Part shown: positions 4,151-4,242 of the stretch, one piece after another
Layout: the number at the start of each line of letters is the position of its first letter
Position numbering within the stretch: position 1 is the stretch's first letter
Source: Vibrio sp. ED004
GTDB taxonomy: Bacteria > Pseudomonadota > Gammaproteobacteria > Enterobacterales > Vibrionaceae
Length of the DNA stretch: 64,000 nucleotides
Assembly (NCBI RefSeq): GCF_023206395.1
Contig: NZ_CP066149.1
Coordinates: 744,001-808,000 of the forward strand
Direction of reading: 5' to 3'
Translations under genes and position numbers: made by a program
The notes under the pieces: generated by a model
What the model was told of the DNA's origin: nothing
Databases searched by the model: none
What the model saw: only the letters and a program-made list of their open reading frames with translations

Positions 4151-4206
4151 TATCTCGTATCTCGTATCTCGTATCTCGTATCTCGTATCTCGTATCTCGT
4201 ATCTCG
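4151..4206. repeat. Heptamer array (TATCTCG)8
   Basis: Eight perfect tandem copies of the 7-mer TATCTCG, preceded by a degenerate copy at 4144-4150. Read on the minus strand it is (TACGAGA)n, starting just past the T-run of the terminator of the AraC-type gene. The same 7-mer occurs at 10475-10492 and 21950-22005, also next to terminators. Confidence 0.97.
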
Positions 4207-4215
4207 TAGGAACAT

Positions 4216-4242
4216 AAAAAAACCCCGACACGAATGTCGAGG
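4216..4242 (-). terminator. Terminator of the AraC-type sensor gene
   Basis: On the minus strand, CCTCGACA-TTCG-TGTCGGGG (one G-T wobble) is followed by seven T. The UUCG loop and U-tract are typical of an intrinsic terminator. Confidence 0.88.

Follow-up and report, generated by a model that had tools for sequence, protein, structure and literature searches.

The three (TACGAGA)n arrays in the window, by which we mean the whole stretch of 64,000 nucleotides of Vibrio sp. ED004 that was analysed, have companions elsewhere in the genome and in related species, and these arrays lie at the 3' ends of genes, consist of near-uniform units that differ by locus and by species, reach about 28 copies and have single-copy alleles. 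We consider it likely that they are simple sequence repeats made and remade in place by replication slippage. In relatives, moreover, an IS3-family element is associated with the arrays and appears to use them as landing pads.

The sequence-only reading that preceded this analysis had described three arrays (Table 1), and they are real, given that the window contains 15 overlapping occurrences of (TACGAGA)2 against a maximum of 0 among 100 dinucleotide shuffles. The second of them had been given 2.5 copies, a figure that TRF corrects to 3.0. A terminator had been placed beside each array, and we indeed find a terminator-like hairpin next to all three. Array 1 is flanked by two 3' ends on opposite strands, that of the AraC-type gene and that of tfoR, going by its Rfam name a regulator of tfoX, whose match ends 48 bases from the array; array 2 lies between the permease gene and sucD, and array 3 between gltA and the DUF34/NIF3 gene. 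The claim that TACGAGA reads on the sense strand of the terminated gene is therefore ambiguous for arrays 1 and 2, where the sense strand depends on the neighbour chosen, since tfoR and the permease gene face them from the other side. No known RNA family was matched at the arrays at Rfam gathering scores between positions 3500 and 22500, the adjacent tfoR being the sole match there. The same reading held that a 7-mer is not codon-compatible and lies outside genes, which does not hold in general: long 7-mer arrays are able to keep a frame open, and two arrays beyond the window translate as RISYLVS repeats on one strand.

Table 1. Arrays of the window with their neighbouring features, and argS (C1 coordinates; all others are window positions)
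Feature	Position	Strand	Remarks
(TACGAGA)n array 1	4151..4208	- (purine strand)	about 8.3 copies
(TACGAGA)n array 2	10472..10492	- (purine strand)	3.0 copies (TRF)
(TACGAGA)n array 3	21949..22005	+ (purine strand)	8.1 copies
tfoR small RNA	4002..4102	+	Rfam RF02100, 117 bits; 3' end toward array 1, on the side opposite the AraC-type gene
Terminator-like hairpin within tfoR match	4064..4092	+	close to the 3' end of the match
Terminator-like hairpin, AraC-type gene	4220..4245	-	11 bases from array 1
AraC-type gene	4290..7673	-	helix-turn-helix (HTH_18) and Reg_prop; 3' end toward array 1
ABC-3 permease gene	9677..10462	+	stop codon 9 bases from array 2
Terminator-like hairpin, sucD side of array 2	10507..10537	-	14 bases from array 2
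sucD-type gene	10584..11456	-	CoA_binding, Ligase_CoA
Citrate synthase gene (gltA)	20601..21890	+	
Terminator-like hairpin of gltA	21912..21943	+	5 bases ahead of array 3
DUF34/NIF3 gene	22117..22875	-	converges on gltA; 111 bases separate its 3' end from array 3
argS	C1:740629-742377		

The genome comprises two contigs of 3.86 and 1.97 Mb, and pattern searches found 13 arrays of the unit class GRGATNY, all on the large replicon (p = 0.005); arrays with other units do occur on the second replicon. Each of the 13 is internally uniform, with 3 to 16 copies, and the unit varies by locus (GAGATAC at 7, GAGATGC at 2, GAGATTC at 2, and GGGATAC and GAGATAT at 1 each). Four of them lie within 23.6 kb (C1:742380-766005; p = 6e-4 for a pattern that was noticed first and tested afterwards). 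An adapter artefact, suggested by the occurrence of TACGAGAT in a published primer, was ruled out because unit variants and locus-specific flanks recur from genome to genome.

With intergenic space delimited by ORFs of 80 aa or longer across 864 kb of own sequence, a randomly placed array comes to lie within 100 bp of a stop with a frequency of 0.401 and within 15 bp with a frequency of 0.104. All 13 GRGATNY arrays lie within 100 bp of a stop (p = 7e-6), six of them within 50 bp, and divergent gene pairs enclose none of them (null 0.216, p = 0.04). With terminators beyond the window judged by eye, the array follows the terminator at the AraC-type gene, sucD, gltA, fusA, suhB, clpA and the DUF2780 gene; at rluC, argS and yacG it starts 0-2 bases past the stop and precedes the terminator. 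The other three arrays lie near rplT, where the array again comes behind the terminator, near a gene of the Na+/H+-antiporter family and near a DsbA-like gene. Placement directly behind terminators thus fails as a rule, and a terminator-specific feature was rejected on the same ground. The arrays are not specific to terminators, and the link with them is indirect, terminators being frequent neighbours since the 3' ends of genes are where the arrays are found. As a separate observation by eye, the stems of the gltA, argS, rluC and yacG terminators seem to have a GGTTGAYG-like word in common. The array-bearing intergenic regions are also rich in REP-like GAGATTCCCTACTCC...GGGAATGACG elements.

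The same position is taken by arrays with unrelated units. A systematic sample of the own genome (800 kb in 40 pieces of 20 kb) yielded 13 further arrays with periods of 5-9, one of them within an ORF, and 7 of the 12 intergenic ones begin no more than 15 bp from a stop, with one overlapping the stop itself (null 0.104, p = 6e-5). Their units are diverse (AAGCTAG, TCTAGCA, ATGAG, TTATCTTC and more), so that GAGATAC appears as one instance of a wider habit. By period, the sample held 14 arrays of 5-9 (one in an ORF), one of 4, and none of 2-3 or 10-12, in a count that took arrays of at least 3 copies and at least 16 bases and hence leaves very short arrays of small units uncounted. A near-exclusive range of 5-9 bp is what would be expected if mismatch repair misses DNA loops of five bases and longer.

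These properties suggest how the arrays could arise. A short unique stretch just past a stop codon or terminator would be duplicated, and the duplicated word would grow to several or tens of near-identical copies and later shrink, with re-expansion possible from a mutated unit or from an adjacent word; the single copy present in some relatives would be the evident starting point of an array. We infer slippage to be the engine of this process, 3'-flanking DNA being the place where arrays persist presumably because it tolerates length change, and units of 5-9 bp probably resulting from slipped loops of such size that evade mismatch repair.

Orientation has exceptions. The purine strand is the sense strand in 10 of the 13 GRGATNY arrays by the nearest 3' end and in 11 by the nearest terminator (two-sided p = 0.09 and 0.02), and in 6 of 8 arrays with other units (a hand count that omits 4 of the 12 for balanced composition or for having no 3' end within 100 bp); together this gives 16 of 21 (two-sided p = 0.027). 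The arrays at rplT and at the DsbA-like gene are exceptions under either rule, and the sucD array joins them if the permease gene is counted as its neighbour. The exception at rplT recurs in 9 of the 18 genomes, a count that includes the own genome. Of the earlier claim that orientation is tied to transcription, it thus stands that the purine strand is mostly sense, while rplT and the DsbA-like gene run contrary to it; purine-sense orientation is a bias rather than a rule. Pure slippage does not predict this bias. A functional insulator is one rival explanation. Rho prefers unstructured RNA with regular YC steps, and the pyrimidine strand would give (GUAUCUC)n RNA resembling a Rho-loading (rut) site which, when facing convergent or antisense transcripts, would halt them before they enter the gene. 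By computation the array RNA is almost unstructured on both strands, the purine-sense strand having no fold at all and the other only a weak one; most arrays have the purine strand sense, arrays 1 and 2 are flanked by units that converge on them, the tfoR sRNA being one, and the TCTC step of the pyrimidine strand is kept by most unit variants. However, orthologous sites freely drop the array or keep a single copy, the rplT and DsbA-like gene arrays have the opposite orientation, and units such as GCTAGAT, GCGATTA or CCACTTAA occur at like sites with no more than one such step in each unit, counted on the complement of the purine strand. We therefore regard an insulator as unlikely.

Comparison with related genomes provides evidence for turnover in place. 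All sites but those at the antiporter and DsbA-like genes, eleven in total, were read in up to 18 relatives and the own genome, with one genome per species and an array defined as about 2.5 copies or more. Nine relatives were picked by gltA identity and nine for their many (TACGAGA)3 matches, so that array carriers are over-represented in the counts that follow; (TACGAGA)3 itself is present in 38 of 196 genomes of the genus. Own genome counted, arrays are found at gltA in 5/19, argS 8/19, rluC 8/19, fusA 8/13, sucD 9/19, the AraC-type gene 16/18 (the nineteenth is interrupted by a contig end), clpA 13/19, yacG 14/19, suhB 9/14, rplT 9/18 (and one octamer) and DUF2780 17/19, with runs of G072 at rluC and of G109 at suhB omitted as they lie elsewhere in the stretch. 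An array may therefore be present at a given site in one genome and absent from it in another. Copy number at orthologous sites also varies, as judged between species, the AraC-type site reaching about 25 copies and the longest array at least 27.9 copies (300 bp were read per site).

Unit and period change at orthologous sites as well, with periods ranging from 6 to 9. At fusA the species carry GAGATAC, GAGATGC, GAGGTGC and two 9-mers, at the AraC-type site GAGATAC, the 6-mer GAGATA and the 9-mer GGAAGATAC, and at DUF2780 GAGATAC, GAGATAT and GAGATGC. Arrays in relatives are mostly uniform, with lone odd units at argS (G009, G031) and DUF2780 (G005, G011). In six relatives (L331-L334, L337, L341) the DUF2780 site carries a second heptamer array, GCGATTA, between the stop and the terminator, so that one gene end can carry two arrays.

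The yacG site offers one such series. The array begins 1-2 bases past the stop in 13 of the 14 array-bearing genomes, and its unit is GCGAGTA in G152 and G011, GAGTAAC in G018 and G146, and GCGAATA in G121 and G109; G193 has an octamer array expanded from CCACTTAA, of which G072 has about one copy, and in G006 and G024 one GCGAGTAA precedes ATTTTGAAGG right behind the stop. Similarly, at gltA the same flanks enclose one unit in G005, nine units in G009 and G031, and nine TGCGAGA units in G011. Both series point to local birth and turnover and argue against the insertion of ready-made arrays; clean empty sites with a whole-array target duplication were not found there, gltA and yacG showing single-unit alleles in the same flanks.

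These data bear on two further explanations. The first is a binding array under selection, in which a nucleoid or termination factor would read the heptamer. A GAGAT-like core recurs at 13 loci, every one at a 3' end, and the array is widely kept at the AraC-type (16/18 genomes) and DUF2780 (17/19) sites, half of the relatives having been chosen as array carriers. However, the period shifts to 6, 8 or 9 and the word changes at the same site, which a site of fixed spacing would not tolerate, and several close relatives are without an array at single sites, making such a function quite improbable. The second is a mobile micro-repeat, arrays or their seeds spreading among loci by copying, insertion or gene conversion, an option already raised in the sequence-only reading. 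One unit class at 13 loci and four arrays in 23.6 kb would fit it, as would the right flanks of the gltA site (GAGATATTTTGAAT) and the DUF2780 site (GAGATATTTTTGAGAATT), whose likeness might reflect a shared origin. So would the presence of degenerate GATNCGRG-rich intergenic patches in the own genome and in relatives, and of TACGAGA arrays within a dispersed, roughly 120-bp element of another gammaproteobacterium (G358). Nevertheless, the yacG, gltA and rluC flanks are locus-specific and common to single- or low-copy alleles, and inspection by eye revealed no more extensive flanking element shared by the 13 sites of the own genome. Orthologous single-copy alleles and local unit births thus disfavour movement of whole arrays, and we hold this second explanation to be very unlikely.

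Degenerate GATNCGRG clusters were rejected as a common source of the arrays: the 864-kb sample contained 6 such clusters, as opposed to 1 in the reversed sequence, and tandem arrays account for 4 of these (3 from the window), the other 2 lying in ORFs. Intergenic GATNCGRG-rich patches, some of them inverted pairs, were seen at L070 (around C1:1936214-1936394) and L073 (around C1:3170652) and in relatives at L350, L362, L363 and L394; such patches are possibly decayed arrays or a dispersed family.

As regards G358, its TACGAGA arrays lie within the dispersed element at 6 of 7 loci, the seventh starting at a contig end, and this is a different situation from that of the own-genome arrays; by eye, the ends of the element (L445, L451, L460, L466, L467, L469) look like inverted copies of the heptamer. 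Among 369 genomes of the class, (TACGAGA)3 occurs in 3, own included, and G344 has one array, past the stop of an ffh-like gene (named by eye). A search of genome contigs with a 938-aa SucA-type protein returned 80 loci, one of which is of the Vibrio family (Salinivibrio).

Among the options raised before, a slippage-prone microsatellite therefore fits best, given the clustering at 3' ends, the single-copy alleles and the local births of units. However, independent local births leave unexplained why 13 arrays come from GRGATNY, a class that makes up 1.4% of heptamers with rotations and both strands counted, and 3' flanks show no clear excess of GAGAT (66 sense and 50 antisense vs 52 and 59 in 5' flanks, window arrays included). 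The recurrent unit class, the purine-sense bias, the four-array cluster and the likeness of the right flanks all speak against a purely neutral view.

In some relatives the arrays are interrupted by a 1252-bp element that encodes HTH_Tnp_1 and an rve integrase core in two frames, which places it in the IS3 family, as do its two ORFs, inverted ends and target duplication of 3-4 bp. Its right end, searched with up to 2 mismatches by a pattern that also catches the look-alike left end, matches 67 places in 20 genomes among 192 of the genus. We read 55 of these (53 loci), excluding 12 in G074 and G188, and after merging identical flanks obtained 34 flank pairs and 20 one-sided flanks; L363, an element of 1195 bp, enters the pairs twice, once from each end. 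A repeat of period 5-9 with at least 2 copies plus 3 bases within the 45-bp flank accompanies 25 of the 34 pairs and 12 of the 20 one-sided flanks, as against 71 of 20,000 random positions, taken in the own genome rather than in each host's. The one-sided flanks are not all independent, 8 of the 20 being left-end reads, several of them remnants at the fusA array. It is true that 3' flanks are richer in arrays, yet roughly a dozen among 588 flanks is insufficient to account for 25 of 34. Of the nine repeat-free pairs, five (L350, L353, L363 twice, L379) lie in degenerate GATNCG-rich DNA, and the other four (L376, L378, L387, L390) have no visible flank repeat. The bases shared at the two ends of the element number 3 in 12 pairs, 4 in 6, 10-11 in 9 (array repeats) and none in 7.

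The element occurs in arrays of many different units. One IS type is hosted by arrays of GAGATAC, GAGATGC, GAGATTC, GGTATTA, ATAGCCA and GCTAGAT, and possibly related elements of similar ends lie in CGTTTAC, CCCTTAAA, TCCCGCA, AATGGGA, GAATAGA and GCTACAA arrays. Its orientation in GRGATNY arrays is fixed, the same end following the purine strand in 14 of 14 listed GRGATNY pairs; an IS with similar ends in the CGTTTAC and CCCTTAAA arrays of G105 has the other strand orientation. In several Vibrio-like genomes such IS3-family elements lie in or beside varied short tandem repeats, at L257, L190, L254, L260, L360, L365, L366, L377, L380-L386 and L388. A lineage of IS3 elements may have specialised on short-period repeats, reading the repeated state (possibly as slipped or bent DNA, for example) over a fixed sequence, with slippage-born arrays at the 3' ends of genes serving as renewable and harmless landing pads; we put this forward tentatively, as a reading with somewhat less than an even chance of being right. 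No match to the element was found in plasmids by megablast of PLSDB. The reverse relation, with arrays as by-products of target duplication and excision of the element, could be considered as it is located within arrays in several genomes, and yet the own genome has 13 arrays and one IS-end match, a remnant, target duplications outside arrays are 3-4 bp long, and IS-free arrays are common, all of which renders it highly improbable. Near three arrays (L067, L068, L071) the same ORF starts at 379, 1712 and 197 bp, respectively, and by eye it runs antisense to a putative IS110-like transposase.

The closest known kind of sequence is the intergenic heptameric simple sequence repeats of Xanthomonas and Nostoc, whose units GGGAATC and GGGGA(C/T)T have, according to PMC4692102, the same position and strand preference as the arrays described here; the paper also refers to an earlier suggestion that heptamers lend themselves to slippage of the polymerase. 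The 13 arrays share with them perfect tandem 7-mers in 3 to 16 copies next to genes, with the purine strand on the coding strand near the stop (13/13 within 100 bp, 10-11/13 sense). They differ in the G-runs that would allow a G-quadruplex: 12 of the 13 are by sequence without GGG, the exception being GGGATAC at C1:2519064, so that with units of mostly GAG and not GGG the quadruplex G-runs are missing. They also differ in having no four-copy preference, in units that vary by locus and species, and in the 6-, 8- and 9-mers present at the same sites. Heptamer arrays are thereby shown outside G-quadruplex cases, and we found no report of heptamer or 7-bp arrays in Vibrio in the open-access literature searched.

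The series found at fixed sites, leading from a single copy to an array and on to arrays with a different unit or period, lets the birth and death of microsatellites past stop codons be followed, and the arrays could serve as typing loci. The TAACTGA direct repeats of the marine Beggiatoaceae are likewise intergenic heptamers at many loci; however, they lie mostly just upstream of start codons (PMC4679880), whereas the present arrays occupy 3' ends, and heptamers akin to the unit seldom form repeats there but commonly do so here. The tandem repeats of archaeal Borgs (PMC9879509) are also fast-evolving, recent and independently arising, although in another type of replicon and another setting. 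In regards to the IS3-family element, titles and abstract openings in the open-access literature yielded nothing on point about IS in tandem or heptanucleotide repeats. The IS elements of REP palindromes are likewise target-selective, landing in repeated intergenic sequence (PMC1525189), the difference being that their target is a palindrome and the target here a short-period direct repeat of varying sequence; the arrays themselves are not REP/BIME palindromic units, the unit being a direct repeat and the array RNA hardly folding. If the IS association holds, short direct repeats would join the selective targets of transposons.
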